NCBI RefSeq assembly: GCF_001983995.1
Contig: NZ_CP019450.1
Span: forward strand, 1,612,001 to 1,676,000
Direction: 5' to 3'
DNA: 64,000 nucleotides
From: Halioglobus japonicus
Lineage (GTDB): Bacteria > Pseudomonadota > Gammaproteobacteria > Pseudomonadales > Halieaceae
Below the pieces are notes generated by a model. It saw only the letters and a list, made by a program, of their open reading frames with translations. It was not told the DNA's origin and made no database searches. Positions 1-14,205 of this stretch are shown here, in pieces (positions within the stretch are counted from its first letter, which is position 1; each line of letters opens with the position of its first letter). A program made the translations under genes and the position numbers.

Positions 1-3000
1 AGTAAGATTGAATTGTTCCGCCCCTCTTTACTGGTGAACGCAGCCCTACATACACGGCCCCTTGATAATGAATTGGGTAGTTTAGGCAGAGCCAAACGAC
101 GCCGCCTGAATCTTGATCGTACGGTTTCGGACTTGATCGATGAATTGACCGAGATCCATGGCGCTAGCCAGGGTTTGATGTCGATCGATACCGAACGTGA
201 GATCAGGGAGAGGGTGGATGAGCCTCTCAACAAGCGCTTTCTCGCCAAGAAAGCTGTGTTGTCCCATTTTGGTCTTGAACTCACCAAGAAGGACCAGAAG
301 AAATTCGAGCGTGAGGCGGAAGAGGTCACGCGATATCCAGGTATTGACCTGTTTTGCCGGGAGTCTCGCGCCAAGGTCTCGATCGGACTCTTAACTGAAT
401 ATCTGGCGCAGAAGTGTGAAGTAAAGACGGCCAGGGCATGGAGTAACGAGGATCTTCTATGTGTCGCTTGGGTGCTAGTAATGATTCTGCATGGTGTACC
501 CAACCCAAATCTGGCTAAGGGGTTCATGCTGAATGCCATCGATAAAGCGTACTCGATCAAGAACGTAGCGATGGTGCCATTGGAGTTCGATGGTGACGAT
601 TGCGCGAATCCTGCGCTGACACATAAGTTGATTTTGTCGCGAGCCGTTCTGTTTCTGTTGAAGGAAATGCGCCGTCGCTTCTGCCGAGACTCGGCTGAAA
701 AGATTCTTGGTACAAAGAAATTTGATCAGGCGATGTCTGCATTACTCAATCATGCAGGCATTGTTGGTTTCCATGGAGGATGCGAAGGACTGGAGGAGGT
801 GGGTGCATACATACATACCCTTAGTGAGTTGTATGTTCCCGTCTATCTCCGAGATCTTTTTGAGGGGCGAATCCTCTCGACGCCGATCTCACCGTTGTCC
901 GACTTTATTTGCACAACTCAGCAGTATCCCAAGGCGTGGCCAGATAAGCATATTCCCAAGGAGGTTAGCGACAGAATCGATGCAGTACTCACAGATGTTG
1001 GCGAGGGTCAGATATCTGATGGTGATTTCTATTCCGGGTTAACTGAAAAGATCGCTCTTGTTGAAAGCATGAGCTGTGGAGGGGAAGAGCAAGCGCGACT
1101 GACCCTCGCCGAAGAGGTAATGTTCTATCTGAAAGGCACGTCAGAATTGTATCAGCTGACTGGTGCGCAGAAGTTGCTTGGATTGTTCCTGCAATACATG
1201 GGACTGGTCGGTATACCTGAATCGGTGAAGGATGCTTCGGTCGGTACACTAGGCACGCTAAAAACTTACTTATCACATGCCAAGCAAGTGGTCTTTGAAG
1301 TCTATGGTAGGCAGTCCGATATAGAGACTACTGATGAAAACTGGGCCGAGGTTTTACGCAAGCTCAGGGGCGATGGCGCATACAACGTCAAGCGGGCAGA
1401 TCGTCTGCACTACTTTCTACAATGTATGGATCAGATGGAGGTGTTAGAGCCTCCACCTCCAGCGGTGATCTACGAGGGTCTTAAGCGAATTGAGGGGCCC
1501 GCGTGCTCTGAGCTAATACATCTAAAAGCATATGGTAGAGCGCTATCCCTGGTGGCTAAGCATTTCCAAGGGGGCGAGAAATGGCAAAGACTCTTTGTGC
1601 TCACGCTTATGTATCGAGGTGGACTTCGCATTTCTGAGGCCTACAACATCAAGTTTAATCAGGTCTTGGTGAGCGAGGATCTGATTGATGTGTATGTAGG
1701 CGGGCGAGGAGGCCCTCCGCCCAAGTCGAAGGCGGCTCATAGGTGGTCCAGCTTGCTCGGTGAGCTTACTGAACTGGAGCGGTGGGCAATTGACGAGTTT
1801 GTAAGAATGAAAAGGGAAGAGGGTTGCGCACCAACAGGATTTGTATTTCGTTGTGCTGACAAGAAGGTTCTCCAAGCTGATCGTGCAAGGCTACAAAGAA
1901 GCATCAACGATATTCTGAAAGTTGCTACGGGGAGGAGCACGGCTCGGTGCCATGATTGTCGCAAAACGAATATCAATCACGTCATTCTATCCATGCTTAA
2001 GCTGGACGAAAAAGACGACAAAAGTAGTCAGAATCCGATGCTGAGTGCGCTCAACGCTACGGCCAGGCTTGAGCATCTCTGGCATCCTAGCTCTCTTCCC
2101 AATATGAATATCCCGAAAAAATGGAGGATCGGTGGCGCACGTCATGCCTACTTTGGCGACGCGGTAGCGAGCAGATTCGGTCATTCGAGTTTTGAGGTCA
2201 CGGTGAAAAACTATCTGGTTTACGGCCCTGAGCTCTATCAGTTCTACTGGAGTCGCATCGGGCTTGAGAAAGATTTGAAACCTGCAATGCATGCGCTCTC
2301 CTTCGGGGAGTTGAACACGGGGCATAAACGCCGCGACTTTCTGGAGCGCCAAGCTGGTACCAAGGGCATTATTAAGCCCGATCTACCTTTCAAGACCCCT
2401 CCGGAGTCTCTGGCAGAAAAACCTAGGAAATTAGGTTTTCCATCCAATGTAGCCGAGGTTGCTTTGCTGATGTCAGGGCGTTTGCCTGATGACACTTCCC
2501 ATACAGATGTACTTCTGGGAGATGTCTCTTCGAAAGTGTACGAGATCCAGTCGCTGGCCGCAGCGATCGCATCGGAGATCAAATACTTGTCCATGAACCC
2601 TGGATTTGAGGAAGGGGCATCATGGACTCCGCACGCACCGTTCTTTGACATAGCGATTCCCAGAGAAGCCATTTCACGGTATTCGGAAATTCGATCCAAT
2701 CTCGACACCACCATCTATAGCGAAGACGGCCTTTGGTTGCAGTCATATGTAGTGGAAGAGAAGAAGCACGACGAGTTCAGTGAGCGACTCGTCATGCGAA
2801 GCGTCGAGGACTTGAAAAGACTCATCGAGCATCTATCTAAGCTCGGCTTTTCACCGGAGAAGATTTCTGTCGAGGCGATGTGTGGGGGCAGGGCGAGTCA
2901 GCTGGTTCAGGAAAAGGGAGCGAATCTGGTGGAGGTCACACGTCGGAGGCTACGTAAGTTTGTATTTCAGGCCTACGAAGCAGCATCAATTGTCACACTA

Positions 3001-3108
3001 GCCAGAGACATTGAATCCAAGATTCAGCTGAACAAGCGGTATCACCAATTGGCATTCGTCGAATACGTTTATCAACGGTATCTCGAAAAATGTGGGAGGG
3101 ACTCATAG
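1..3108 (+). CDS. Large tyrosine recombinase (site-specific integrase), possibly 5'-partial
   Basis: DNA strand-exchange enzyme of the tyrosine recombinase family, probably acting in mobility of the island. Numbering from the TTG at 13 (1031 residues), the catalytic residues appear as Arg539 in GGLRISEA, Arg710 in GGARHAY, His724 in RFGHSS and Tyr734 in VKNY. The catalytic domain therefore lies at about 480-735, preceded by a long N-terminal region and followed by about 300 residues of unassigned C-terminal extension. Usual phage or integron integrases are 300-430 residues, so this is unusually large. The frame is open to base 1 (agt aag att gaa), so the true start may lie outside the window. 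The stop overlaps the next gene's GTG start, implying one transcript. Family is clear from motifs; its recombination site and mobile element are not known from this sequence. Confidence 0.8.
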   Translation, partial: SKIELFRPSLLVNAALHTRPLDNELGSLGRAKRRRLNLDRTVSDLIDELTEIHGASQGLMSIDTEREIRERVDEPLNKRFLAKKAVLSHFGLELTKKDQKKFEREAEEVTRYPGIDLFCRESRAKVSIGLLTEYLAQKCEVKTARAWSNEDLLCVAWVLVMILHGVPNPNLAKGFMLNAIDKAYSIKNVAMVPLEFDGDDCANPALTHKLILSRAVLFLLKEMRRRFCRDSAEKILGTKKFDQAMSALLNHAGIVGFHGGCEGLEEVGAYIHTLSELYVPVYLRDLFEGRILSTPISPLSDFICTTQQYPKAWPDKHIPKEVSDRIDAVLTDVGEGQISDGDFYSGLTEKIALVESMSCGGEEQARLTLAEEVMFYLKGTSELYQLTGAQKLLGLFLQYMGLVGIPESVKDASVGTLGTLKTYLSHAKQVVFEVYGRQSDIETTDENWAEVLRKLRGDGAYNVKRADRLHYFLQCMDQMEVLEPPPPAVIYEGLKRIEGPACSELIHLKAYGRALSLVAKHFQGGEKWQRLFVLTLMYRGGLRISEAYNIKFNQVLVSEDLIDVYVGGRGGPPPKSKAAHRWSSLLGELTELERWAIDEFVRMKREEGCAPTGFVFRCADKKVLQADRARLQRSINDILKVATGRSTARCHDCRKTNINHVILSMLKLDEKDDKSSQNPMLSALNATARLEHLWHPSSLPNMNIPKKWRIGGARHAYFGDAVASRFGHSSFEVTVKNYLVYGPELYQFYWSRIGLEKDLKPAMHALSFGELNTGHKRRDFLERQAGTKGIIKPDLPFKTPPESLAEKPRKLGFPSNVAEVALLMSGRLPDDTSHTDVLLGDVSSKVYEIQSLAAAIASEIKYLSMNPGFEEGASWTPHAPFFDIAIPREAISRYSEIRSNLDTTIYSEDGLWLQSYVVEEKKHDEFSERLVMRSVEDLKRLIEHLSKLGFSPEKISVEAMCGGRASQLVQEKGANLVEVTRRRLRKFVFQAYEAASIVTLARDIESKIQLNKRYHQLAFVEYVYQRYLEKCGRDS

Positions 3109-4187
3109 TGGAGCTACATGCCAGGCAGTATTCATTTGATTTCTATGAGGCTGCAAATGAATCAAATTGCGTTTTAGAGTCAAAACTTACTATTGCAACC
3201 GTGAAACGGGATTTTCCTAAAGGTTGGTCAGCTTTAGCGCCAGGTGAAGTCAAGCGGATAATGGCGGGGGAGATGAAAGCGTGTGGTCAGTTGAACTCTC
3301 TCTATTCTACGATCTTTCGCTGGGTCAAAGAACAAAGCCCTGAGCTTGGTATAGATGAAATGGGGTTCTTCCTGGTAAGCACGGACGAGATTCCTCGCGA
3401 TGGTTGTTCTATGAGATTGGAGGTAGTGCTTGAGCCGCAGCACTGCCTTCCGTTCGGGTCGGATGATATCCGAGCCGCTATGCGGTCTATTCAGGAGCGC
3501 TTTTTTTCTGCTGTGGATGCCACGCGGAAGATTTATGCAGAGTTGGAGGACCTGTTACACAAACAGCAGAGCTTGGATGAGGAGCATCCTATATACATTG
3601 TGGGTCCCAGCGAGAAAGTGTCTGAGATAGATGACAAAGTAGAAGTGAGCAGTCGGCATATCGCGGATTTCATTGAACGGTCCCTACGGAAACACAGGCT
3701 GCTGAATTCATCGGTAATCTGCATGGACGACACCGACATCCCGGTCTGTCCCTCAGATAGCCTCATTGAGGCGATGAACGAGGATCCTTGTCGTGAAAGG
3801 CACATGCAGGAAGCCATTGATACCTATGTATGGACTGCATTTGTATCGCCTAACGATAGGGTCTATATGGTGGTGGATGGTGGCTCTGTAGGCAGGCGAA
3901 CTCCGACAACGGAGATTGAGCTCCTTAAGTGTTGTTTTGACGGAAAAATGCGGAATGATGCGAAGAGGGTTAATGTGAATCACCTTCATCAGTATCAGGG
4001 CAAGATAGTCAACCTCGGTTATTTTGCGTGCAAAGCGCGTTTTACCAGGCCGAAATCGGCACCTAAGCATTCGGTCGTTGCACATTTAGGTCAGCATCGG
4101 AAATTGCATCAGATGCGAGGTTGTAATCGCCCGATACCAAATAGTTCATTAGATCGCTTGGTTCGCGAGAGAGACGCGTTGTTTTAG
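3108..4187 (+). CDS. Unknown protein coupled to the large recombinase
   Basis: I do not recognise this 359-residue protein. The GTG at 3108 is preferred over the ATG at 3090 because it overlaps the upstream TAG (ATAGTG) and has GGGAGG at 3095-3100, about 7 nt before it. This is a translational-coupling arrangement. No signal peptide, membrane segment or nucleotide-binding loop is evident. The middle is acidic and polar, and the last roughly 60 residues are rich in basic residues and His (RPKSAPKHSVVAHLG, QHRKLHQMRG), suggesting nucleic-acid contact. Established multi-gene recombinase modules (Tn554-type, RIT) carry accessory proteins next to tyrosine recombinases, so an accessory role in transposition is a reasonable inference, not a demonstrated one. 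Confidence 0.65.
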   Translation: MELHARQYSFDFYEAANESNCVLESKLTIATVKRDFPKGWSALAPGEVKRIMAGEMKACGQLNSLYSTIFRWVKEQSPELGIDEMGFFLVSTDEIPRDGCSMRLEVVLEPQHCLPFGSDDIRAAMRSIQERFFSAVDATRKIYAELEDLLHKQQSLDEEHPIYIVGPSEKVSEIDDKVEVSSRHIADFIERSLRKHRLLNSSVICMDDTDIPVCPSDSLIEAMNEDPCRERHMQEAIDTYVWTAFVSPNDRVYMVVDGGSVGRRTPTTEIELLKCCFDGKMRNDAKRVNVNHLHQYQGKIVNLGYFACKARFTRPKSAPKHSVVAHLGQHRKLHQMRGCNRPIPNSSLDRLVRERDALF

Positions 4188-4427: not shown

Positions 4428-4442
4428 CGTTTGCCTTCGTAT

Positions 4443-4554
4443 AGGGCGTAGCCGATAGGGCGTAGCCGATAGGGCGTAGCCGATAGGGCGTAGCCGATAG
4501 GGCGTAGCCGATAGGGCGTAGCCGATAGGGCGTAGCCGATAGGGCGTAGCCGAT
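4443..4554. repeat. Eight tandem copies of a 14-bp repeat
   Basis: The unit AGGGCGTAGCCGAT occurs eight times head to tail without a mismatch (4443, 4457, 4471, 4485, 4499, 4513, 4527, 4541). Open frames through it are just translated repeat and are not called as genes. The lack of variation suggests recent expansion by slippage. Confidence 0.95.
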
Positions 4555-4750
4555 TCAGTCATCTCGAGCTTATGAGCTCTATGGATTCTGCTCAAGGCTG
4601 ACCCCAGCATCACTGACACTTTGGTCAAAGCTGCATTCTACGTACTCAGGTTGACCGGACGTCACTGCTGCCAAGGGAGCATGGACTGATGTTAGTCTGA
4701 CTGACTCAGCCTGTCCGTTTTCACCTCAGAGGAGACGTTGATCGCTGATA

Positions 4751-4789
4751 GTCTAATGTCCACTTTGGGGCCATAAGCGGACATCAGAC
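4751..4789. repeat. Imperfect palindrome of the GTCCGC...GCGGAC repeat family
   Basis: GTCTAATGTCCACTT at 4751-4765 pairs with AAGCGGACATCAGAC at 4775-4789 (13 of 15 positions) around TTGGGGCCAT. Related sequences recur at cassette boundaries to the right. This copy overlaps the end of the leftmost leftward gene, where no clear attC is visible. Bases 4555-4750 hold nothing else I can assign. Confidence 0.6.
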
Positions 4790-5083
4790 TGGCTCCAAAG
4801 TGATGATTATCAGACCGAGACCAACAACCATCGCGAGGACAGCGCTGCCTAATATTCTCGCGGCGATATTGTACCTTTGAAGCTGACCTTGATCCGGCTG
4901 TATCTCGAGACCCTCACACCATTGTCGGTAATGCCTTAGTGCCCGCCCCGGAGCAGCACAATGACGAAAAGGAAGGCCGCTACCGCTTTTTGAAACGAAG
5001 ATCAGTGTTGCCAGACCCTGGAAACAGAATAGCGCCATTCCGAGGAAGGCTGTAAAAATCAGTATTACGCCAACGGTTTTCAT
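4784..5083 (-). CDS. Small membrane protein of unknown function (leftmost cassette)
   Basis: A 99-residue protein with two predicted membrane segments: residues about 4-30 (VGVILIFTAFLGMALF) and about 74-96 (ILGSAVLAMVVGLGLIII), joined by a polar loop containing two Cys. No family recognised. It is the last gene of the leftward set. An attC-like site separates it from the gene at 5181, and the GTCCGCTT..GGCCCC motif lies just before its start. Its downstream boundary has decayed to a palindrome rather than a clear attC. Small membrane products are common in integron cassettes. The call as a real gene rests on its frame, hydrophobic pattern and cassette position. Confidence 0.55.
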   Translation of the reverse strand: MKTVGVILIFTAFLGMALFCFQGLATLIFVSKSGSGLPFRHCAAPGRALRHYRQWCEGLEIQPDQGQLQRYNIAARILGSAVLAMVVGLGLIIITLEPV

Positions 5084-5111
5084 GTCAGATATGGGGCCAC
5101 AAGCGGACGTT

Positions 5112-5172
5112 CATAACGCCTACATCAACGGCGGCCACGGAGTGGCCGTCCGAATGCCTGTACTTGTTATGG
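5112..5172 (-). other. attC-like recombination site
   Basis: Read on the minus strand the site begins CCATAACAAGTA and ends GTAGGCGTTATG, with inner self-pairing arms CGGCCAC/GTGGCCG around TCC. This matches the inverse-core/core layout of integron attC sites. It follows the stop of the gene at 5181 by 8 nt. Confidence 0.7.
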
Positions 5173-5180
5173 TGCCGGAG

Positions 5181-5636
5181 CTAGACATTCACCACACTCT
5201 CATAGAGATAGGCTATTGCTATGCCATCCCTGATCAGAACATACCCAGTTCGCTTTGAATCATCTCCGAACTCCTCAAATGGCAAAAGCTTATCGCCATC
5301 TTGCCAGAACTCTAAGAGGCACGAATAGCTAGGGCCTTCTGCCCCACCTAGATATCCGAGAGAAGCTGAAACATACGCCATTTCCTCCCCTGGCAAGGGG
5401 TCATTTTTGGAGAGATCTAGCATGTCGTGCGCTCGCTCTTGGAGCGCTCGCTTTGATACTTCCACCGGTGTAACTACCTGGCCATACTCGATCTCTCCGA
5501 GCTGACCGAATTTCAGCAAATCGAGGTGCGCGCCACTACAGTTTCGGGCCTCTGAAATCGCAGGACTTGAAAACAGCACAAACAATAGAGCTATGGCTGA
5601 ACGATCGAGATGGCTGGTCATAGGATTAGGAACCAT
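5181..5636 (-). CDS. Secreted cassette protein of unknown function
   Basis: A 151-residue protein with an N-terminal export signal (SAIALLFVLFSSPAISEA) ending near residue 30, then a soluble domain with two visible Cys (ARNCSG and YSCLLEF) that could form a disulfide. No family recognised. The first ATG sits within the GTTATGG core of the upstream attC. An in-frame ATG 15 nt later (MTSHLDRS) is an equally possible start, and neither has a strong ribosome site. The stop lies 8 nt before the next attC, the compact layout expected of a cassette. Likely periplasmic. Confidence 0.65.
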   Translation of the reverse strand: MVPNPMTSHLDRSAIALLFVLFSSPAISEARNCSGAHLDLLKFGQLGEIEYGQVVTPVEVSKRALQERAHDMLDLSKNDPLPGEEMAYVSASLGYLGGAEGPSYSCLLEFWQDGDKLLPFEEFGDDSKRTGYVLIRDGIAIAYLYESVVNV

Positions 5637-5709
5637 AACGCCTCAGGCTGAGGCCAGCGTCAGCTGGTCCTGCGCCGAAGGCGCCTTGCAGCCCTGACTT
5701 GTTACATGG
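5634..5709 (-). other. attC-like recombination site (best example)
   Basis: On the minus strand it opens CCATGTAACAAGTCAGGGC and closes GCCTGAGGCGTTATGG. Internal GGCGCCTTCGGCGC and CCAGCTGACGCTGG segments can fold. It starts at the stop codon of the gene at 5710 and ends in the start of the gene ending at 5181. Confidence 0.8.
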
Positions 5710-6054
5710 CTAGCCACAAGGACCCGGATTTCTAATGCGATAGCTGCCAAATGGGGGCACAGATTCCCCGGCCGCTTGAGTAAGGCAAACCATAGATTCG
5801 TTTTGCAAAGAATACCTAGAAACAATTTGGTGCTCACTCCCATCTGCCAATCGAACGGTGTATTTTTTGCCAGCTGCACCATGGCCCCCTGCTCGGAATA
5901 AAGCTGTTTCTGAACCAACAATTTCGGCGGTGAAGGTATTGGGTGATTCGAATGTGAGCATTCCGTACGCAACGACTGCTACAAACGAGCCGATGATAGT
6001 AAGAACCATTGCCACACCTATCCATTGAGATGACTCCTTAGTTCGAACTTGCAT
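5710..6054 (-). CDS. Small membrane-anchored cassette protein
   Basis: A 114-residue protein starting at MQVRTKESSQW (ATG complement at 6052-6054). One strong membrane segment covers about residues 12-35 (IGVAMVLTIIGSFVAVVAYG), followed by a soluble domain that looks periplasmic. The segment containing GKKYTVRLADGSEHQIVSRY resembles a small beta-rich fold. No family recognised. An upstream TTG-initiated extension runs into the repeat module and is less likely. It lies between an upstream module-type repeat and the downstream attC at 5634-5709. Confidence 0.6.
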   Translation of the reverse strand: MQVRTKESSQWIGVAMVLTIIGSFVAVVAYGMLTFESPNTFTAEIVGSETALFRAGGHGAAGKKYTVRLADGSEHQIVSRYSLQNESMVCLTQAAGESVPPFGSYRIRNPGPCG

Positions 6055-6065
6055 CAGAGCCCGCC

Positions 6066-6152
6066 ATGTAACAGCCAAGTATATGGACTAAGTAATTGTG
6101 CACAGAAAACTCTCTATCATGAGCGGTGGTTAAGGGGCCAAAAGCGGACGTT
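6066..6152 (-). repeat. Inter-cassette module, divergent copy
   Basis: On the minus strand this reads AACGTCCGCTTTTGGCCCC, then CTTAACCACC..., and ends TTGGCTGTTACATGG. Both ends match the copies at 6934-7030, 8201-8289 and 8846-8936, while the middle has diverged. It lies between the core of the attC at 6153 and the next gene's start. Confidence 0.6.
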
Positions 6153-6221
6153 CATAAAGCCCGCATTAACGAATTAATTGGAGCGCAGCGGAAACTATTC
6201 CTTTACATGCGCTTGTTAGGC
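6153..6221 (-). other. attC-like recombination site
   Basis: On the minus strand it runs from GCCTAACAAGCGC to GCGGGCTTTATG, enclosing a foldable AATTAATTCGTTAAT segment and CCGCTGCGC. The stop codon TAA of the gene at 6216 lies inside its first core. Confidence 0.7.
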
Positions 6222-6452
6222 GTTTCCCTTGCTCGTACAAGACAAACACTTACCGGTAATTAAACTCATATTTTGCAAGTGTGAACCTAAGCTACCGCCA
6301 CACTGAGGACAATTACAATGTATTAATTTGCTATATGAGAAAAGCCCCCAAAAAACAGCAAATACAAGCAACACTGGATGAAGAATGATAGACAATAGAA
6401 AGATCATCATGAGACCTAACCAAGTTATCAGCAATCTCTTCCTAGCACTCAT
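6216..6452 (-). CDS. Small membrane protein with C-terminal zinc ribbon
   Basis: A 78-residue protein. Residues about 7-41 are strongly hydrophobic (LLITWLGLMMIFLLSII, PVLLVFAVFWGLF), one long or two short membrane segments. The tail has paired cysteines, CNCPQCGG and GKCLSC, typical of a zinc ribbon. No family assigned. The stop is embedded in the attC core, as in other cassettes here. A cytoplasmic ribbon anchored to the membrane is inferred from the pattern only. Confidence 0.6.
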   Translation of the reverse strand: MSARKRLLITWLGLMMIFLLSIILHPVLLVFAVFWGLFSYSKLIHCNCPQCGGSLGSHLQNMSLITGKCLSCTSKGNA

Positions 6453-6508
6453 TTATAATCCCTTTTCCACCGATGCAGAATGAACTTGGCACATTCTTAA
6501 CTGGGACA

Positions 6509-6588
6509 CTTAACGCTTCAAGCAGGGGCGACCGCAGAGCGGGCGTCCCGGCGCGAAGCGCCCTTGCTGCCTTGACTTGTTATGAGGC
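6509..6588 (-). other. attC-like recombination site
   Basis: On the minus strand it opens GCCTCATAACAAGTCAAGGC and closes GCTTGAAGCGTTAAG. Nested inverted segments, GGGCGCTTCGCGCC and GACGCCCGCTCTGCGGTCGC, lie inside. The stop TAA of the gene at 6580 is within the first core. Confidence 0.75.
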
Positions 6589-6933
6589 ATTTTCAACGAG
6601 CATGAGTATCACGAATGTAACTGGGATGGTCACGAAGAACGGTACGGCTAATGCTATCAATACCTTCGTTATCATGCCGATATTCAGGACCTTTCCAATA
6701 TAGGCTACCGATAGTATCAATCCGATTGCGGCTCCGATCCACTCGCTGCCCATAAGTGCGAACACTGTATTAGGCAATACATTCAGAAAGAATATGACGG
6801 TGCCAAACAGATACGACCTGGGCCAGAGTCTTTCCGTTACTCCGCAACCCTTAAGAATCGGATAAGAGACAAGACCGTATGTCGAAACAAGCAATGCCAA
6901 TAGCGCGATTGCGGATAACATTCCAGTTAGCAC
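6580..6933 (-). CDS. Multi-pass membrane cassette protein, unknown function
   Basis: A 117-residue protein with about four membrane segments (MLSAIALLALLVSTYGLV; YLFGTVIFFLNVLPNTVF; WIGAAIGLILSVAYIG; KVLIALAVPFFVTIPVTFV). No conserved catalytic motif is seen. The start is a GTG at 6931-6933 directly after a GTTATGAGGCGTT core; an internal ATG (MLSAIA) is a close alternative. Cassette layout: core site and module before it, attC after it. A transporter-like or immunity-type role would be guesswork. Confidence 0.6.
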   Translation of the reverse strand: MLTGMLSAIALLALLVSTYGLVSYPILKGCGVTERLWPRSYLFGTVIFFLNVLPNTVFALMGSEWIGAAIGLILSVAYIGKVLNIGMITKVLIALAVPFFVTIPVTFVILMLVENAS

Positions 6934-7030
6934 AACGCCTCATAACAGCCAGATATGTGGAAAAAGTCAGTGTGCATATAAAATTCTTTTCAATGTGAAG
7001 GACAGCTAAGGGGCCAGGATCTGCCGTCCG
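6934..7030 (-). repeat. Inter-cassette module with terminal core site
   Basis: On the minus strand this reads GGCCCCTTAGCTGTCCTTC, then ACATTGAAAAGAATTTT, then GCACACTGACTTTTTCC and ends GGCTGTTATGAGGCGTT. It matches the copies at 8201-8289 and 8846-8936 over most of its length. It is non-coding and ends in a GTTATGAGGC core next to the gene start. Confidence 0.7.
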
Positions 7031-7032
7031 TA

Positions 7033-7395
7033 CTATGAGGTTGGTGCATCCACTTCTTTGCACGTAGCAATACCGACAACAGTCGGAAAATCGAACGTCA
7101 TCGGCACAGCGGTGGCATGGCTAGTAGATGGCTTGTCGCCGTCATATGAAAATTGATAGTCGTATTCGCCACTGCCGCACAAGTCCGTTGCGCGTCTATG
7201 CCATAGCTCACGAACCCCTTCATTCGTAGCAAAGCCGTTACCTGCCGCAGTTATCTTGTATTTTCCCTCTCCCAGTTTTTCATCTTCGTAGCCGCCCCCA
7301 AATCCAGAAGATAAATCTTGATACGGGGGTGTGGCTGAACAAGCTGCCAGCGCCAATACGCCAATTACGATCAAAGAGCGGGAAGAAGTGTGCAT
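7033..7395 (-). CDS. Outer-membrane-type lipoprotein, unknown function
   Basis: A 120-residue lipoprotein precursor: basic start, hydrophobic core LIVIGVLALAAC and a lipobox LAAC with the acylated Cys at about 19. SerAla follows Cys, so lipid sorting to the outer membrane is expected. The mature part has an RRATDLCGSG...YDYQFSY segment resembling small bacterial lipoproteins of the CC0125/CC1285 type. It is the first gene of the leftward cassette series and sits next to the inverted repeat and recombinase remnant. No attC is clearly visible at its 3' end. The lipid attachment site may matter given an lspA gene in the same array. Confidence 0.7.
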   Translation of the reverse strand: MHTSSRSLIVIGVLALAACSATPPYQDLSSGFGGGYEDEKLGEGKYKITAAGNGFATNEGVRELWHRRATDLCGSGEYDYQFSYDGDKPSTSHATAVPMTFDFPTVVGIATCKEVDAPTS

Positions 7396-7427
7396 AAAAA
7401 ACCATCAAATGAGTTGGAAAAGAGAAT

Positions 7428-7452
7428 GTCCGCTTTGTGGACGAAAGCGGAC
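7428..7452. repeat. Palindrome and left arm of a 21-bp inverted repeat
   Basis: GTCCGCTTT (7428-7436) pairs with AAAGCGGAC (7444-7452) around GTGGACG. In addition, 7432-7452 is the exact reverse complement of 8201-8221, so the recombinase remnant is bracketed by a 21-bp inverted repeat. Confidence 0.9.
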
Positions 7453-7524
7453 TGTACGGCAAGATTATCATAGACAACAGCTGCCGGTCGCGGCTTGATT
7501 CTGGAGGCATTGATCAATTAGTAA

Positions 7525-8147
7525 TCAAATCTCAGTCTGCTCGGACAGTTCCAGTGCGTCTTCCATCTCGACTCCGAGGTAGCGGATCGTGCTTTCAAGT
7601 TTCGTGTGCCCGAGTAGTAGTTGGATAGCCCTTAGGTTCCCGGTTCGCTTATAGATCATCGATGGCTTCGTGCGGCGTAAGGAATGGGTGCCGTACTCTT
7701 TGACATCCAGACCTGCGGAGCGAAACCAGTTATCAGTGAGGCGAGCATACTGCCTAATAGAGATATGTGATTCAGCATTAATTCTGCTCGGAAATAGATA
7801 GTCGCAATCTCTCAGTTGCCGCTCACGAATCCAGGCTGTCAGGCTATCCCTAGTTGGGGCGTTATCTCGAACTGTACTGGTCTCTGGGTCTTTCGCTGCA
7901 TAATAGTGGCCCGGCTGGCGACCCTTCCTCCTTGCGCTACGTCGCCTACGACTAGCCTAACCAGGTCACAGCCTCTAAGTTTGCTATCAAGAGCTAGGTT
8001 GAACATGGCGAGATTGCGTGTATTTTGAGCAATTTTTAGCCGGATTCGTATCTCCCAGATGTCCCGCAATTTCAGCGGTCTCTTTTGGCCAATGATTAGG
8101 CCTCGGTTCCACGCGGTACGTTTACAAGTTGCTTGGTGTATGGCCAT
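7525..8147 (-). pseudogene. Frameshifted small tyrosine recombinase
   Basis: Two frames together give a compact tyrosine recombinase of about 207 residues. The N-terminal part is MAIHQATCKRTAWNRG...DSKLRGCDLVRL, ending prematurely at 7839. The C-terminal part restarts in another frame as TRDSLTAWIRERQLRDCDY and continues through THSLRRTKPSMIY and LLGHTKLESTIRYLGVE to a TGA at 7525-7527. Catalytic Arg (KLRGCDL), His-x-x-Arg (HSLRR), His (GHTK) and Tyr (RYLG) are all present. Adding one base to the GGGG run at 7856-7859 joins the frames. It is not a typical IntI, which is about 320-340 residues. It may be a true pseudogene or a homopolymer sequencing error. Confidence 0.8.
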
Positions 8148-8200
8148 ATCCAGGACCCCGCTATTTGATTATGGGAGTCTTTAGGATAGGCTGTAAAACC

Positions 8201-8289
8201 GTCCGCTTTCGTCCACAAAGCTGCCCTTCACATTGAAAAGGATTTTCGATGCAAACTGACTTTTTCTACATTCCAAGCTGTTATGAGGC
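8201..8289 (+). repeat. Inter-cassette module and right arm of the 21-bp inverted repeat
   Basis: 8201-8221 mirrors 7432-7452 exactly. It continues as CTGCCCTTCACATTGAAAAG, GATTTTCGATGCA, ACTGACTTTTTC and ends AAGCTGTTATGAGGC, matching the module at 8846-8936 and, reversed, at 6934-7030. The GTTATGAGGC core at its end contains the first ATG of the lspA cassette. Confidence 0.75.
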
Positions 8290-8777
8290 AACAGAGCGTC
8301 ATGCTTAAGAGAGCTTTCCTGGTGGCTATGATTGCCTTGTCAGTAGTTGGTTGCGACCAGACCACTAAACATATTGCCCAGTCGCAACTGGCACACGATA
8401 AGTCCCATAGCTATTTCTATGACTCATTTCGGTTAACCTATGCCGAAAACACCGGGGCTTTTCTAAGTCTTGGTTCCAAACTTCCGGACACCACAAGATT
8501 CGCCATCTTCTCCATCTTGGTAGGAGGAATGCTTCTCGGAGCCATCATTTACACTCTAACAAGCCCAAGTCTTACGAGCTTGGAGCAATTCGGCTGGTCT
8601 GTAGTTATTGGCGGTGGGCTAGGTAATCTCCACGACCGCATATTTAACAATGGTGCTGTAATCGATTTTCTAAATTTAGGGATCGGTAGCGTTAGAACGG
8701 GTATCTTCAATATTGCAGACATGGCTATTCTTCTCGGCATTGCATTAATACTATGGCCCAAGCGTCGTGCCTCATAA
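8283..8777 (+). CDS. lspA: Signal peptidase II (lipoprotein signal peptidase) in a cassette
   Basis: Aspartic protease of the inner membrane that cleaves the signal peptide of diacylglyceryl-prolipoproteins. The 164 residues show four hydrophobic segments and the family motifs: DQTTK near the N terminus, GNLHDR and VIDFLN with one catalytic Asp, and FNIADM with the second. The first ATG (8283) is inside the GTTATGAGGC core. The ATG at 8301 (MLKRAFLV) is an alternative in the same frame with a weak AGAG upstream. The stop lies inside the next attC. As a cassette it is likely an extra copy beside the chromosomal gene. The N-terminal stretch ALSVVGC resembles a lipobox itself. Confidence 0.88.
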   Translation: MRQQSVMLKRAFLVAMIALSVVGCDQTTKHIAQSQLAHDKSHSYFYDSFRLTYAENTGAFLSLGSKLPDTTRFAIFSILVGGMLLGAIIYTLTSPSLTSLEQFGWSVVIGGGLGNLHDRIFNNGAVIDFLNLGIGSVRTGIFNIADMAILLGIALILWPKRRAS

Positions 8778-8848
8778 AAAGTCACGGCAGCAAGGGGGCT
8801 TCGCGCGGGGACGCCGTGACCTGCGCCCCCGCGTCAAGTGTTATGAGC
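8769..8848 (+). other. attC-like recombination site after lspA
   Basis: It opens CCTCATAAAAAGTCACGGC and closes GCGTCAAGTGTTATGAGC, with GTCACGGC/GCCGTGAC able to pair inside. The first core is degenerate (AAAAA where others have TAACA). The lspA stop codon is in this core. Confidence 0.65.
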
Positions 8849-8936
8849 GTCCGCTTTTGGCCCTTAGCTGCCCTTCATATTGGAAAGGATTTTCGATGCA
8901 CACTGGCTTTTCCGTAAACGTATCTGTTAGATGACT
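8846..8936 (+). repeat. Inter-cassette module
   Basis: Starts at the end of the lspA attC (GCGTCCGCTTTTGGCCC), continues TTAGCTGCCCTTCATATTGG, AAAGGATTTTCGATGCACAC and ends TATCTGTTAGATGAC, where the next gene begins. It is the clearest case of attC core, module, second core, gene. Confidence 0.75.
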
Positions 8937-9329
8937 AGCATGATTCGAGTTATTACATGCATTCTTCTTTCACTTTTTTCGGCGTGTGCGCTCGCTTGCA
9001 CTGTTCCAATGATGGGTGCAGATTTTGATGAGCTCATTACAGTAGAGGAAATCGGAAATAATGGTTTTAAAGCTACCATTTCTAAGGAAGCAAAGGGGCT
9101 AAGTTACGGTGCTGAAGCTACCGTACAATATTATCCTGCTAGTTCTGAGCACAGGATTGGTGAGTATTCAAAAAGGGTTCAATTAATAGAGCAAGGCTCT
9201 AACTATGTTTCCTCTTTTGAATTAGAGAAAATTGAAGGGCATATTCCTTTCTTGCAAGTGTTTTGGTACCCAGAGCAATGCTGTTTATGTGGAGCCTTCG
9301 GCAAATCAGATGACCTTTCACTTGACTAA
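8931..9329 (+). CDS. Secreted, cysteine-rich cassette protein
   Basis: A 132-residue protein with a signal peptide (MIRVITCILLSLFSACALAC) and a small soluble domain. Mature cysteines sit near the N terminus and in EQCCLCGAF near the C terminus, suggesting disulfides or metal binding. ACALAC also loosely resembles a lipobox, so lipidation is possible but not clear. The start is ATG 8931 within the core site, or ATG 8940 (MIRV...). No family recognised. Confidence 0.6.
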   Translation: MTSMIRVITCILLSLFSACALACTVPMMGADFDELITVEEIGNNGFKATISKEAKGLSYGAEATVQYYPASSEHRIGEYSKRVQLIEQGSNYVSSFELEKIEGHIPFLQVFWYPEQCCLCGAFGKSDDLSLD

Positions 9330-9339
9330 TTTACCTAAG

Positions 9340-9415
9340 AAGCAAGTTTGTCTCCGATTTCGAGGCTGGGACAGCCTCTACTGCATTTCCATTGCCCAAA
9401 ATGCTCGCGTTCACG
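9340..9415 (+). other. Degenerate attC-like site
   Basis: AGCAAGTTTGTC at the left and CTCGCGTTCACGCG at the right resemble the arms of the other sites, with a GAGGCTGGGACAGCCTC hairpin between. Both core sequences are worn, so this is a weak call based on position before another GTCCGCTTTTGGCCCC copy. Confidence 0.35.
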
Positions 9416-9450
9416 CGTGTCCGCTTTTGGCCCCTTAGCTGCCTTTAATG
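9416..9450 (+). repeat. Truncated inter-cassette module
   Basis: GCGTGTCCGCTTTTGGCCCC followed by TTAGCTGCCTTTAATGG matches the first part of the full modules. The second half and the terminal core are replaced by unrelated sequence before the next gene. Confidence 0.6.
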
Positions 9451-9490
9451 GTCACCCTCAACTTTAAGCGAGAACAGTAAGGATGTTTCG

Positions 9491-10000
9491 TTGCACTCAA
9501 TAGTCACCAGTAAGCGGATACAGAGGGTTCTAGCAGTAATAGTTTTGACGATATTTAGTGGTTCAGCATCTGTTGCTGCTGCCGAGAAGAGGTATGATCT
9601 AGTTTACGAGTGCCACGATGCATCTGGTGCGGAGGTCTCACTCAGCTCCCATTCCCAAGTGTCGGAAGTCAAAGAGTTTGCCAACAAAGAAGTTCCCTTA
9701 AGTTTTAGTTTTGGCCTAAGGGAGGGCGAAGACACCATAGACTACGCTGTTGATCATTCCGTCTTGGATAGAGACAGTAAATCCGCTATGAAGCTGACAG
9801 TGGTTTTGGATGAGCCACACTATAAGTTTGCCTACTCGGTTAGTGGCCCCAACGTTTGGCAATTCAATTTAAATCTCGACTTAGATATAGCTAGTATTGT
9901 ACTTATAGAATCGTCTGCTAAGTGGGAGCAAGCGTCTGCAACAGTCTACCAATCAAAGTGCAAGCAAATAGCCGTACACCCTGAGCTTTGGCGTAAATGA
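9491..10000 (+). CDS. Secreted protein of unknown function
   Basis: A 169-residue protein with a signal peptide (VLAVIVLTIFSGSASVAAAEK, cleavage near AAA-EK) and a soluble, beta-rich-looking domain with two Cys (YECHD and SKCKQ). The TTG start is chosen because AAGGA at 9479-9483 lies 7 nt upstream, an in-frame stop is at 9446 and no ATG fits. No family recognised. Downstream, ATGAATGTCCGCTCCTGGCC (the worn start of a module) directly follows the stop with no attC. This suggests a degraded cassette junction. Confidence 0.6.
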   Translation: MHSIVTSKRIQRVLAVIVLTIFSGSASVAAAEKRYDLVYECHDASGAEVSLSSHSQVSEVKEFANKEVPLSFSFGLREGEDTIDYAVDHSVLDRDSKSAMKLTVVLDEPHYKFAYSVSGPNVWQFNLNLDLDIASIVLIESSAKWEQASATVYQSKCKQIAVHPELWRK

Positions 10001-10002
10001 AT

Positions 10003-10020
10003 GTCCGCTCCTGGCCCCAT
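10003..10020 (+). repeat. Remnant of the inter-cassette module
   Basis: GTCCGCTCCTGGCCCCAT matches the first 18 bases of the module and lies between two consecutive rightward genes without an attC. Confidence 0.5.
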
Positions 10021-10037
10021 TCCTGTAGATACAATCA

Positions 10038-10445
10038 ATGAGTAATACATCCACAGGAGATAATAAATCACTTCTTATCGCCGTATCACTTGGGCCGCTT
10101 TATCCGGCCCTGTCTTATGGCTTTTTGTGGATCTTGCTATCTGCTGGCTTGCGAGGCGGTGATGTTATTGGTCGGATCTTGATGAATTCGCTAGTCTTTG
10201 GTCTGGCAGCAATAATTTGTACTGGCATAGCGGCCTTGTTGGCCAAAACCCAAGTAAAGGTGAGTGGTTTCACATTTGCAGTATGTAGTTACTACTTTTG
10301 GTACGAGCTACTTCCAAGGCTGAATGGCGTAGAGAGTCGTTTCAATGATTTCAGTGCGTGGTATACGCTTGTTGTCTCTGTTGGACTTCCTATTCTTCTC
10401 ACATATGTTCTAGCGTGGTGCTTTCGAAGGAGAGAAAGTGCTTAA
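10038..10445 (+). CDS. Multi-pass membrane protein, unknown function
   Basis: A 135-residue protein with about four membrane segments: LLIAVSLGPLYPALSYGFLW, MNSLVFGLAAIICTGIAALL, FTFAVCSYYFWYELL and YTLVVSVGLPILLTYVLAW. It ends in an arginine-rich tail (CFRRRESA). No motif identifies a family. It sits between two module remnants, in the same direction as lspA, and fits the pattern of small membrane cassettes here. Confidence 0.6.
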   Translation: MSNTSTGDNKSLLIAVSLGPLYPALSYGFLWILLSAGLRGGDVIGRILMNSLVFGLAAIICTGIAALLAKTQVKVSGFTFAVCSYYFWYELLPRLNGVESRFNDFSAWYTLVVSVGLPILLTYVLAWCFRRRESA

Positions 10446-10451
10446 GATCAA

Positions 10452-10469
10452 CGTCCGCTTTTGGCCCCA
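10452..10469 (+). repeat. Remnant of the inter-cassette module
   Basis: GTCCGCTTTTGGCCCCAT, followed by TGCGGAC, lies immediately before the next gene. It retains the first 16-18 bases of the module only. Confidence 0.55.
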
Positions 10470-10477
10470 TTGCGGAC

Positions 10478-10696
10478 ATGAATCAAAGAGTCACTTTAAC
10501 TTTACTCCTGGTATCGCTAAGTGGGTTTGCGATGGCTACGCCGTGCAGCCTCGAACTGGAGCTTGTTCACAGTGTCCCGCCTACATACCCGGCCGGGCCT
10601 GTTGCCTACCACTCATGTCACACAGGTTACGTTACGATAGGGTTTCGGGTGGAAAAGGACGGCAGCCGGATATTTTTGACTTCAGATCGGAGCTGA
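10478..10696 (+). CDS. Short secreted protein with a partial TonB C-terminal-like segment
   Basis: A 72-residue product: a signal peptide (VTLTLLLVSLSGFAMA), then a segment with VPPTYPAG and GYVTIGFRVEKDGS. This resembles the first half of a TonB C-terminal domain (PxYPxxA...GxVxVxFxVxxDG). The usual second half is missing; the frame ends at 10696 and neighbouring frames do not restore it convincingly. It is probably a truncated gene, or a small cassette protein that matches by chance. Bases 10697-10940 downstream hold no recognisable gene. Confidence 0.4.
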   Translation: MNQRVTLTLLLVSLSGFAMATPCSLELELVHSVPPTYPAGPVAYHSCHTGYVTIGFRVEKDGSRIFLTSDRS

Positions 10697-10940
10697 TTCG
10701 GGGGGAGGCTCACTACTCGCTCTGCAAAACTGAGCCTGTAGGATACTGTCGGGTAGGTGACTCTTGGTTTTGAGTTATCGGTGTTCTTCCAGCCTGATTA
10801 AGACGGTGGAGGTTGTCAGTCAAAACATCGATGCTCGCGAAAACCAGGGAGCAGTCCTCGTCCGGCAGGCTTTGTTGAGTTGGTTGCAGGCCGCTGAGGG
10901 TGGGAAGCTCAGTCGCGGATAATCCAACTCTAGCGACTGA

Positions 10941-11947: not shown

Positions 11948-12264
11948 TATTCATACCCTCCGATCATGTGTGGCGGGAGGCGATCCAATAGAAGTAGATG
12001 GAACTCTCTCTCGAGCACTGTGAGGTCTGCGTCCATGGGGAGAAGATCATTCTCCAGCAGGTAATCCCTGAGCCAAATTACTACTGCATCTTCGTTGGAA
12101 GAGCAGATTTCTCTAGCGATGAAGCTCGCTATGGTCTTCCCTTGAGGATCGATCCCTTCTCGGAGGCAGAGGTGGCGGGCCACCTGCTGAACGTACTTTT
12201 TTTGGGCTTTCTTCGCCTCTTGAACCAGTTGATCCAGTGTGAATGTCTTGTTCCAGATACTCAT
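11947..12264 (-). CDS. Small unknown soluble protein coupled to the integrase
   Basis: A 105-residue soluble, charged protein (FTLDQLVQEAKKAQKKYVQQ near the N terminus). No motif identified. Its ATG overlaps the integrase TGA (ATGA arrangement at 12261-12264), a strong sign of co-translation with the integrase, and its own stop overlaps the next gene by a base. It could act in recombination or be cargo. Confidence 0.62.
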   Translation of the reverse strand: MSIWNKTFTLDQLVQEAKKAQKKYVQQVARHLCLREGIDPQGKTIASFIAREICSSNEDAVVIWLRDYLLENDLLPMDADLTVLEREFHLLLLDRLPPHMIGGYE

Positions 12265-13457
12265 TGTTGATCTCCTGTTTGGCCTTTCTGAGAGTCGTTA
12301 TTCATCCGTTCGTTGAGGAGTGCCTCGAAGGCAGAGCCATCGCGCCGCGTAAGGTCGGGGGCGAACTTGGCATATTTTTGTAGGGTAACTGTGGGGTCTG
12401 AATGCCCTAGAACCTGGGATACCCAGAGCACGTTCTCGCCGGCTGCCAACCAGAGGGCTGCGGCCGTATGGCGGCTCTGGTAGAGCCTGCGGTAGGGCAG
12501 GTCCAGGAGGCGCAGTAGTGGCTTCCAGACGCGATTGTTGACGTTCTGGATGGTGAGGGGGTTGCCCTCGCCGTTGCAGAACACGTACTCCATGCCGCCG
12601 GTACGCTTTTCCTGCTCCTTCAGAGCGTTATAGACGAACTGGGACATGGGGATATCCCGGAAGGAACTGTCCGTCTTGGTGTCGGTCATTTCTCCGGCCA
12701 CCAGGCTCTCGCGCACCTGAATCTCCCGGCGCTCGAAATCGATGTACTTCCATTTCAGGCCGTGAATTTCACCAGTACGCATACCTGTGAAGAAGCGAAC
12801 GGTGAAGTAGCAATGAAAGTCCTCCCTGACGTGGGTGAGGATCCGCTGTACCTCGTCCAGGGTGAAGGGATTCACCTGGGTCTTGGGAACTTTCAGCGCC
12901 TTGATGTTCTGAAAGGGTGTTTCGAAGCCAAAGCGGTCCGCAGCCTCATTGCACACGAGGCGCAAGGGCACCATGACGGTATTGATCCGGGCGTGAGAGA
13001 GTCCCTGGCTACCGTCTTTGCGGGGGATTTTGGCCAACTTAGCCCGGAAGGCCAGGATGTCAGCCCGGGTGATGTGGCTGACGGGTATCTCACCGAAGGC
13101 TGGGATGACATGCTTGTCCAGGGAGGACCGCAGCGTGGTCCGGTAGGAGTGCTTCCAGCTGACTTCGTTCTCGTCGAACCAGGTCTGGGAGAAATCGCTG
13201 AACGTGGGCGTATCTGCCTGCACTTGCTCTATTCGGTTTTCGTGCTGCCTGAATTCACCAACTCGATCTGAGTTAGGAAAATAATTTTCATATTTGAAGG
13301 AGCCCAAGAGGACCTCCGCCTCAATGCGCTCCAGAATTGCGGCTAGCCGTTTTCGATTAGCGGGTTTATCCGGCAGTTTTGTGTATTCACGGCAGCGGAC
13401 TCCCCGATATCGGAAATCGATAAAGAGCAGACCGCGTCTAGACCTTATGGATCCCAT
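12261..13457 (-). CDS. Tyrosine-type site-specific integrase (DUF3596 arm-domain type)
   Basis: Integrase that catalyses insertion and, with an excisionase, excision of the island. The start MGSIRSRRGLLFIDF at 13457 is favoured over longer frames because TAAGGAGG lies 5 nt upstream on the minus strand; this gives 398 residues. The N terminus (FIDFRYRGVRCREYTKL) matches the DUF3596 arm-binding segment of Pseudomonas-type prophage integrases. A SAM-like core-binding domain follows at about 95-190. The catalytic domain shows Arg in FTGMRTGEIHGL, HTAAALW (in YQSRHTAA), LGHSDPTVTLQKY with His and the nucleophile Tyr. It follows the excisionase by 10 nt and overlaps the next gene. The tRNA-Met at 14129 is the likely target. 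Confidence 0.92.
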   Translation of the reverse strand: MGSIRSRRGLLFIDFRYRGVRCREYTKLPDKPANRKRLAAILERIEAEVLLGSFKYENYFPNSDRVGEFRQHENRIEQVQADTPTFSDFSQTWFDENEVSWKHSYRTTLRSSLDKHVIPAFGEIPVSHITRADILAFRAKLAKIPRKDGSQGLSHARINTVMVPLRLVCNEAADRFGFETPFQNIKALKVPKTQVNPFTLDEVQRILTHVREDFHCYFTVRFFTGMRTGEIHGLKWKYIDFERREIQVRESLVAGEMTDTKTDSSFRDIPMSQFVYNALKEQEKRTGGMEYVFCNGEGNPLTIQNVNNRVWKPLLRLLDLPYRRLYQSRHTAAALWLAAGENVLWVSQVLGHSDPTVTLQKYAKFAPDLTRRDGSAFEALLNERMNNDSQKGQTGDQQ

Positions 13458-13467
13458 GGGTGCCTCC

Positions 13468-13683
13468 TTATTGAATGCCGGCCATAAGGGCCGAGGTAGT
13501 GGGACGCCGCATGTCCTGCTCAATACGCTCCCATATGAAAAGAAGTTTCCTACCGCCAAACGGCCTGAAATAATGGATGCCCTCCAGGAGGACGGAGTCC
13601 TTCAGTCGTGACCTCACAGTTCGTACGTCGTAGCCTATTTTCTCGGCAAGTTGTGCTGTGGTCAGGTATGTAAAGTTGTCCAT
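13468..13683 (-). CDS. Excisionase-like helix-turn-helix protein
   Basis: A 71-residue protein from ATG 13683 (MDNFTYLTTAQLAEK). It has a winged-helix or MerR-like DNA-binding start (TTAQLAEKIGYDVRTVRSRL) followed by LLEGIHYFRPFGGRK, a pattern seen in small excisionases and regulators that precede DUF3596 integrases. The longer frame to 13749 is rejected because CTGGAG lies suitably upstream of 13683. It probably binds near the attachment site to direct excision. First gene of the leftward int operon. Confidence 0.75.
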   Translation of the reverse strand: MDNFTYLTTAQLAEKIGYDVRTVRSRLKDSVLLEGIHYFRPFGGRKLLFIWERIEQDMRRPTTSALMAGIQ

Positions 13684-13998
13684 AAAATGGCTCCAGACAA
13701 TTGGGTGACCGGTGGGCCCCATGCCCTGTTGATCACCATGTAGAGCCAAGATTTCATGGATATTGATATTGCGCTGGCAGATGGGAAATGAGCGTTTTCC
13801 ACAGCGGAGGCAGTGAAGGGCTTTGGCTAAGCTGTCCCATCAAATCTGCGAAAAATCTGGGCTGTAGGCCCGGATTTTTCGCCGCCGCCAAAGGCCACAT
13901 ATCGATCACAGATTCTGTAGGTTGTCCTCGCTGTGGGAAACCGCTAACCGTTGTTCCAGCGGGTGTTTTCGAGGAGGGGAAAACGCAGATATTGGGTC

Positions 13999-14042
13999 GG
14001 GCCCAGATTGGGCTCAATTTGGGCCCCATTTGGGCCCCAGCG
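13999..14042. repeat. Four GGGC(C/T)C motifs phased at exactly 11 bp
   Basis: GGGCCCAGATT, GGGCTCAATTT, GGGCCCCATTT and GGGCCCCAGCG start at 13999, 14010, 14021 and 14032. An 11-bp phase places each motif on the same helix face. They lie between the excisionase gene and the tRNA, where integrase arm or Xis binding sites would be expected. The remainder of 13684-14128 contains no gene I can support. Confidence 0.6.
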
Positions 14043-14128
14043 ATTTTCGGGAAAAAACAGCCAATCTTGCGCAATCGAAAATATGCGGCTAAGCTTATGA
14101 ATAATAAAGAAAAAGTGCTTGAATTAAG

Positions 14129-14205
14129 TGGTAGCTACGGGTGGACTTGAACCACCGACCCCAGCATTATGAATGCTGTGCTCTAACCAGCTGAGCTACG
14201 TAGCC
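14129..14205 (-). tRNA. tRNA-Met (CAU), probable integration target
   Basis: The minus strand gives a 77-nt cloverleaf starting GGCTACGTAGCTCAGC and ending CCGTAGCTACCA, with encoded CCA. The anticodon stem-loop CAGCATTCATAATGCTG carries CAT. The acceptor GGCTACG pairs with CGTAGCT (one G-U), and the T arm reads GTGGTTCAAGTCCAC. It closely resembles elongator tRNA-Met of E. coli (metT). Its 3' end faces the excisionase-integrase operon, the standard layout of an island inserted into a tRNA 3' end. Confidence 0.95.

Follow-up and report, generated by a model that had tools for sequence, protein, structure and literature searches.

Why should a cluster of small genes interspersed with attC-like sites be laid out back to back, when the cassettes of an integron normally share one direction? 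The question is raised by a locus in a window of 64,000 nucleotides (bases 1612001-1676000 of the 4.1 Mb genome of Halioglobus japonicus, hereafter G000), which had been described, in what we call the original prediction, as a divergent cluster of attC cassettes without an integron integrase. With a probability of about 0.75, the locus belongs to a gene-cassette system separate from integrons, consisting of a recombinase of about 207 amino acids (aa), 25-bp core sites and arrays led by a leader site, with attC cassettes as passengers.

The borders of the units are formed by a 25-bp core composed of a left arm (GTCCGCTTT), a 7-bp spacer and a looser inverted right arm. Two spacer classes were distinguished: CGTCCAC in the leader sites at the start of each array and TGGCCCC in the cassette sites. 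Genome-wide, the cassette pattern GTCCGCTTTTGGCCCC was matched 48 times with at most two mismatches (versus nine matches for the reversed pattern) and the leader pattern 13 times with no or one mismatch (versus none); the next matches to the leader pattern, at three mismatches, were cassette-class sites. Downstream of a leader and in the same orientation lay 46 of the 48 cassette sites, arranged in 12 arrays; two cassette-type sites were solitary, and one leader had no cassette site at this threshold. In 10 of the 14 arrays outside the transposon described below, the last site resembled AAAGCGGAC more closely than AAAGCTGCC, which applied to 8 of the 53 internal sites (Fisher p = 1e-4). A leader repeat, present in nine copies that each start at a core, follows both leader and cassette classes; its end carries CTGTTA, which resembles the integron core, in six of the nine copies, a suggestive hint at most of attI-like recombination. 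Promoters cannot be claimed for the leaders, as a sigma-70 scan around them remained at chance (one found versus a mean of 0.9).

In the window locus, two inverted leaders enclose a tyrosine-recombinase pseudogene and one array runs outward from each, on the minus strand to the left and on the plus strand to the right, up to its last site (Table 1). Compared across related genomes, as the original prediction had proposed, this divergent plan recurs in Halioglobus maricola (G002; Halieaceae, Gammaproteobacteria), where leaders at 2682-2706 (minus) and 3458-3482 (plus) of locus L043 enclose an intact gene (2761-3384). The divergent layout, with six left-hand genes reading leftward and the right-hand genes rightward (confirmed from the open reading frames, ORFs), is real, but the attC sites are not its determinant: it results from two leader sites that face outward from the recombinase gene. 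The window locus would be such a master locus of the proposed cassette system, its recombinase now being frameshifted.

Cassettes were counted in 20 arrays: 13 in G000, four in G024, which belongs to another genus (its MutY is 65% identical in protein to that of G000), and three in H. maricola, which like G007 is a congener of G000; these array counts leave out one leader of H. maricola (L045, at 1710078) as well as all sites from G001, G004, G006 and G413. A script delimited 75 cassettes (median 584 bp), in 72 of which the longest ORF follows the site direction. Matches extending beyond a quarter of the longer unit were obtained for 22 cassette pairs; in 11 of them the match takes in 97-100% of the unit length, at 93-100% identity, and two of these 11 pairs are neighbours in arrays 543k and 1395k and travelled as one block. 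The lspA-type cassette of the window is present again, as a whole, at 3.14 Mb of its own genome (97.2% identical). A cassette common to G000 and H. maricola is 98.1-99.5% identical and ends exactly at the site, the values for three host genes of these genomes being 76%, 77% and 86% and that for the recombinase gene 81%; even the different genera of G000 and G024 have whole cassettes in common (93.4-98.9%). The interval between a hydrolase gene and mutY carries arrays of different content in G000 and H. maricola, and core sites were absent from the 8-9 kb read beside mutY in G001, G006, G007 and G024. Judged by these sequence comparisons, the cassettes move as units whose ends are core sites.

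The point at which partners change was approached through 118 site hits, from which nine mirror hits were removed; the 102 sites whose spacer differs by no more than one base from the cassette or the leader spacer (80 cassette and 22 leader sites) were used. Only the left neighbour was common in 23 site pairs, only the right in 38, and neither in 5028. In the left-sharing pairs the left arms were 96% and the right arms 70% identical, in the right-sharing pairs the right arms 93% and the left arms 92%, against a background of 81% (left) and 63% (right). One unit, for example, keeps GACAGCTTT-TGGCCCC in three arrays, where the sequence continues with AAAGCTGCC, AAGGATGAC or AAAGCGGCC. The arm identities point to an exchange close to or at the border of the spacer with the right arm, or inside the spacer if the spacers are alike. 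A single-strand exchange of the integron kind, considered from the spacer pattern, was dropped, since like-spacer recombination explains most junctions as well.

The intact 207-aa recombinase of H. maricola matches Phage_integrase (PF00589, E 2.9e-17), and its residues R58, R158, H181 and Y190 are invariant in seven sequences including two IntI, to which it is 20-22% identical without possessing their N-terminal region; the solved structures nearest to it by sequence are Xer proteins. Relatives at E 1e-20 number at least 7997 (of 8000 candidates scored), and 2028 plasmid records contain a match. In G007, a 56% identical recombinase lies between inverted GTCCGCTTT-CGCCTAA sites (L106: 7260 minus, 8217 plus), and cassettes nearby (L107) are bordered by GTCCGCTTT-CGCCTAA on one side and by GTCCGCTTT-CACCTC in inverted orientation on the other; sites of these two kinds were found in six of the nine genomes searched (among others at L109 in H. 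maricola and L110 in G001) and their arrangement may represent a sister system in the same genus. Related, less exact sites occur on both sides of a 55% identical copy in G001. Inverted sites thus enclose a recombinase gene in four genomes (G000, H. maricola, G007 and G001), and the sites around the G007 and G001 copies indicate that the arms are kept and the spacers differ between diverged recombinases. From this position and the co-variation of the sites, we infer that the recombinase acts on the cores. Hairpins just after the recombinase genes of G017, G019, G455 and G458 may be plain terminators and were not used.

The attC sites were sought with a detector for TAACAAG...GCGTTA (at most two mismatches in all) combined with a bottom-strand hairpin; a strict RYYYAAC/GTTRRRY rule, which gave one site in 19 loci upstream of IntI genes, and a looser fold rule, which did not tell the strands apart (32 expected, 37 opposite), were rejected. 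The detector found three attC without core mismatches, all on the minus strand in the left half of the locus. For comparison, 100 Markov-resampled copies of the array averaged 0.09 hits and never had more than 1, the rest of the window gave two weaker hits, and eight control loci (about 107 kb) gave two. Sixteen loci beside IntI genes of the same order gave 71 hits, 68 of them on the strand expected for cassettes, but the core pattern had been chosen after viewing these loci, which are therefore no independent test. An IntI (TIGR02249) over the cut-off was absent from the whole genome of H. japonicus, which gave six weaker Xer-like or integrase-like matches, and present in 44 of 95 genomes of the order, its own included among the 95.

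The absence of an IntI-type gene from the window, noted in the original prediction, extends at the family cut-off to the entire genome, and start or stop codons do fall within attC core sites at 5636, 6216, 6580, 8283 and 8775-8777. Instead of the at least four good and two worn attC sites claimed, the cluster comprises three good and two worn ones, and the sole right-hand attC (8772-8848, plus) is worn and fails the detector. According to PMC9024848, a cluster of attC lacking an integrase (CALIN) has at least two clustered attC sites without IntI; with three good sites at 5111-6585, found by our own detector, the left half fits this label in the narrow sense. It does not explain the array: an attC-like R' lies within 14 bp of the core at the end of only 11 of the 75 cassettes (8 different; 2.5% by chance), and shared units end at the 25-bp core. 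Five attC-like sites in a row (L025:3373-5555) lie inside one larger array and, by their sequence, constitute a small integron-type array nested in it. The earlier observation is thus largely right, and its attC interpretation describes a minor layer; the central pseudogene (7524-8147) and the core sites bounding the units had escaped it.

Table 1. Features of the divergent cassette locus of H. japonicus, in positions of the window
Feature	Position	Strand	Basis
Last site of left array, GTCCGCTTA-TGGCCCC-AAAGTGGAC	4758-4782	-	core-site match
Cassette gene, 99 aa, no Pfam match	4784-5083	-	ORF and Pfam search
Cassette site, GTCCGCTTG-TGGCCCC-ATATCTGAC	5084-5108	-	core-site match
attC, good, nested in larger cassette	5111-5172 (detector span 5114-5169)	-	no core mismatches
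Gene, 151 aa, no Pfam match; start codon within attC core	5181-5636	-	ORF
attC, good	5633-5707 (detector span 5636-5704)	-	no core mismatches
Gene, 122 aa, no Pfam match	5710-6078	-	ORF
Cassette site, GTCCGCTTT-TGGCCCC-TTAACCACC	6125-6149	-	core-site match
attC, worn	6150-6221	-	fails attC detector
Gene, 78 aa, no Pfam match; stop codon within attC core	6216-6452	-	ORF
attC, good	6508-6585 (detector span 6511-6582)	-	no core mismatches
Gene, 117 aa, no Pfam match; stop codon within attC core	6580-6933	-	ORF
Leader repeat, GCTGTCCTTCACATTG...CTGTTATG, inverted copy of 8219-8289	6937-7007	-	repeat comparison
Decayed cassette site, GGCAGATCC-TGGCCCC-TTAGCTGTC	7001-7025	-	read from sequence; outside site counts
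Gene, 120 aa, no Pfam match; first of left array	7033-7395	-	ORF
Leader site, GTCCGCTTT-CGTCCAC-AAAGCGGAC, facing left	7428-7452	-	core-site match
Tyrosine-recombinase pseudogene, two frames (7528-7860 and 7854-8147)	7524-8147	-	similarity to intact 207-aa H. maricola protein (7528-7860: residues 97-207, 93% identical; 7854-8147: residues 1-98, 88% identical)
Leader site, GTCCGCTTT-CGTCCAC-AAAGCTGCC, facing right	8201-8225	+	core-site match
Leader repeat, GCTGCCCTTCACATTG...CTGTTATG	8219-8289	+	repeat comparison
lspA-type signal peptidase II gene, 164 aa	8283-8777	+	PF01252, E 3e-30
attC, worn	8772-8848	+	fails attC detector
Cassette site, GTCCGCTTT-TGGCCC-TTAGCTGCC, one base short	8849-8872	+	core-site match
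Cassette gene, 132 aa, no Pfam match	8931-9329	+	ORF
Cassette site, GTCCGCTTT-TGGCCCC-TTAGCTGCC	9419-9443	+	core-site match
Cassette gene, 169 aa, no Pfam match	9491-10000	+	ORF
Cassette site, GTCCGCTCC-TGGCCCC-ATTCCTGTA	10003-10027	+	core-site match
Cassette gene, 135 aa, no Pfam match	10038-10445	+	ORF
Last site of right array, GTCCGCTTT-TGGCCCC-ATTGCGGAC	10453-10477	+	core-site match

Just beyond the left end of the locus, a 14-bp unit (ATAGGGCGTAGCCG) is repeated in tandem (4441-4555). Other recombinase-like genes occur on both sides (13-4187 and 12261-14205, with 12261-13559 adjoining a tRNA-Met gene), which suggests that the locus lies in a genomic island; at gathering thresholds, Rfam gave nothing in the window beyond one tRNA.

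Four of the arrays (543k, 1395k, 1424k and 2574k) are carried by one element (copies at L034:3660-5477, L031/L019, L033/L023 and L035/L026) whose 605-aa protein product has a zinc-binding domain of the IS1/IS1595 type scoring just above the cut-off (28.8 versus 28). The gene of this protein is followed by the leader and by a different array in each copy. All copies have their right end in common; CTAGGCATTAAAT and its complement form the inverted ends, and a 9-bp repeat, read by eye, flanks each of the four copies, all of which sit in a terminator-like stem. The zinc domain, the inverted ends and the 9-bp repeats at insertion recall the IS1/IS1595 transposons, from which the element differs in its protein of three times the length of the IS1 transposase (199 positions), in its load of leader and cassette array and in its insertion into terminator-like stems. 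By analogy, the array-bearing element may be regarded as a parallel to transposon-borne integrons.

Reverse transcriptase genes (PF00078) and DUF1554-like proteins often stand directly after leaders (L036:4725-5771, L027:4432-5261, L032, L026, L039:12614-13741); together they look like what we take to be a diversity-generating retroelement with scattered targets. G048, a gammaproteobacterial genome outside this family, has a pair of neighbouring cores (L057:1501-1571) in which the left arm is unchanged but the spacer reads ACCCCCG, possibly a further spacer class. Exact palindromic cores with any spacer were found in only one of 368 other gammaproteobacterial genomes sampled, and wide occurrence is accordingly not claimed. 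Viral contigs contained no leader; four single cassette-site matches in them had no neighbouring sites and were judged to be due to chance.

In the mechanism that we propose, a tyrosine recombinase reduced to its catalytic domain (about 207 aa) would act on cores of two 9-bp inverted arms and a 7-bp spacer. Each array begins at a leader site (GTCCGCTTT-CGTCCAC-AAAGC). A cassette of one or a few genes, nearly all pointing away from the leader, starts with the right arm of one site and closes with the left arm and the spacer (GTCCGCTTT-TGGCCCC) of the next; the site at which an array ends often has a more complete right arm (AAAGCGGAC). Excision and insertion of cassettes would take place at the cores, probably as circles and most readily between like spacers. 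As the recombinase gene lies between two inverted leaders, two arrays run outward; further arrays are scattered along the chromosome, and a transposon carries four of these. Some of the larger cassettes contain nested integron cassettes with attC as passengers, which an integrase from elsewhere would have loaded. The circular intermediates, the function of the leader and the entry route of the attC cassettes are parts of this scheme that we infer.

Several results weigh against the scheme. Recombination itself was not observed, and the only recombinase copy of H. japonicus is frameshifted. Within the family, the recombinase occurs in 9 and leaders (at most two mismatches) in 7 of 81 genomes, both together only in G000, G001 and H. 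maricola, and G024 has arrays (four leaders) and no recombinase relative at E 1e-30. Around eight relatives from other bacteria (44-63% identical) no flanking core pair was found; one of them has, 92 bp downstream, a lone weak resemblance to a core, with 14 of 18 arm bases matching. The left arms of the right-sharing pairs exceed their background, partly owing to many leader-leader pairs; an exchange between leader and cassette class was seen, besides the leader repeat, in only one of the 38 right-sharing pairs; and two paired host genes next to one of the G024 arrays match G000 at 98.4% identity, so longer stretches travel too. Could the cores then be dispersed repeats, operators or terminators, assembled into arrays by homologous recombination or transposition and not by a site-specific recombinase? 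The solitary cassette-type sites, one leader called terminator-like, shared blocks that span two cassettes (543k, 1395k) and the transposon moving whole arrays would agree with this. Such an origin is nevertheless unlikely in view of the co-oriented arrays behind leaders that hold nearly all sites; moreover, in many cores the right arm lacks complementarity to the left one, so that no hairpin forms there, about 25 bp of homology is little for homologous recombination to work on, and partners change at or near one core edge.

That the cassettes are real but moved by another enzyme such as XerC/XerD, the 207-aa recombinase gene being a mere passenger, would account for the G024 arrays without the gene and for the frameshifted copy; Xer-like proteins are encoded in the own genome, and according to PMC13141974 Xer-type recombination moves dif modules between like-spacer sites. 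We nonetheless hold this improbable: the gene is placed between inverted leaders in G000 and H. maricola, its diverged copies in G007 and G001 lie between inverted related sites with the arms kept and the spacer changed, and the core is built as 9+7+9 and not as 11+6+11 like dif. An integron remnant, that is, a CALIN into which an IntI acting in trans had placed attC cassettes in both directions, is very improbable. The good and worn attC sites of the window, the row in L025 and the frequency of IntI in the order speak for it; against it, attC-like elements end few cassettes and another core delimits the units, the right half has only one, worn attC, and no IntI passes the cut-off in the own genome. 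As an explanation of the array it is refuted by arrays of the same cassettes without any attC.

The cassette system proposed here resembles integrons in having arrays in which small cassettes, most of them pointing the same way, follow a single fixed leader, in the tyrosine recombinase beside the leader and in its dispersed and transposon-borne forms, with attC cassettes as nested passengers. It differs in the lack of IntI, its recombinase being without the IntI N-terminal region, in unit borders made of short two-armed cores and not attC hairpins, and in a single recombinase gene that is flanked on each side by a leader with its array. Working like an integron and yet failing two tested defining features (IntI and the attC border), it was not classified as one. 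In dif modules, the sites alternate in orientation and the host XerC/XerD are used, the sites themselves consisting of 11+6+11 positions; here, the cores are 9+7+9 with the arms GTCCGCTTT and AAAGCGGAC, all 46 array sites share the orientation of their leader, and the arrays are chromosomal with a leader class and a recombinase gene between leaders. The likeness lies in genes bounded by short two-armed cores: according to PMC13141974, the dif (pdif) modules of Acinetobacter plasmids are genes between short two-armed tyrosine-recombinase cores, of which those with like spacers recombine, and they shuffle between replicons. With the fim DNA invertases (FimB/FimE, acting on fimS) the system has the small tyrosine recombinase in common, the NCBIfam model of a tyrosine-type DNA invertase giving E 7.8e-5, far below its cut-off. 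The fim repeat, given as TTGGGGCCA in PMC8777976, is also found when the cassette core is read as its reverse complement, which may be a coincidence; in fim, one promoter segment is inverted between inverted sites, whereas the sites here are direct repeats with many cassettes between them.

Among the matches listed in the openly licensed PMC literature (bioRxiv being outside this scope), none described arrays of this kind, and a description may exist elsewhere. We consider it fairly probable that a third cassette platform exists beside integrons and dif modules, characterized by a small single-domain recombinase between outward-facing leaders, arrays spread over the chromosome in part by a transposon, exchange between species and genera, sister spacers and two-level nesting. 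The cassette-core model explains the back-to-back array, which integron rules do not, and its two-component recombination system would, if real, be directly testable in Escherichia coli. Integrons are the textbook platform of gene capture; a second one with a smaller recombinase and short cores would mean, if true, that this design arose more than once, and would expose a pool of mobile small genes that is invisible to attC searches.

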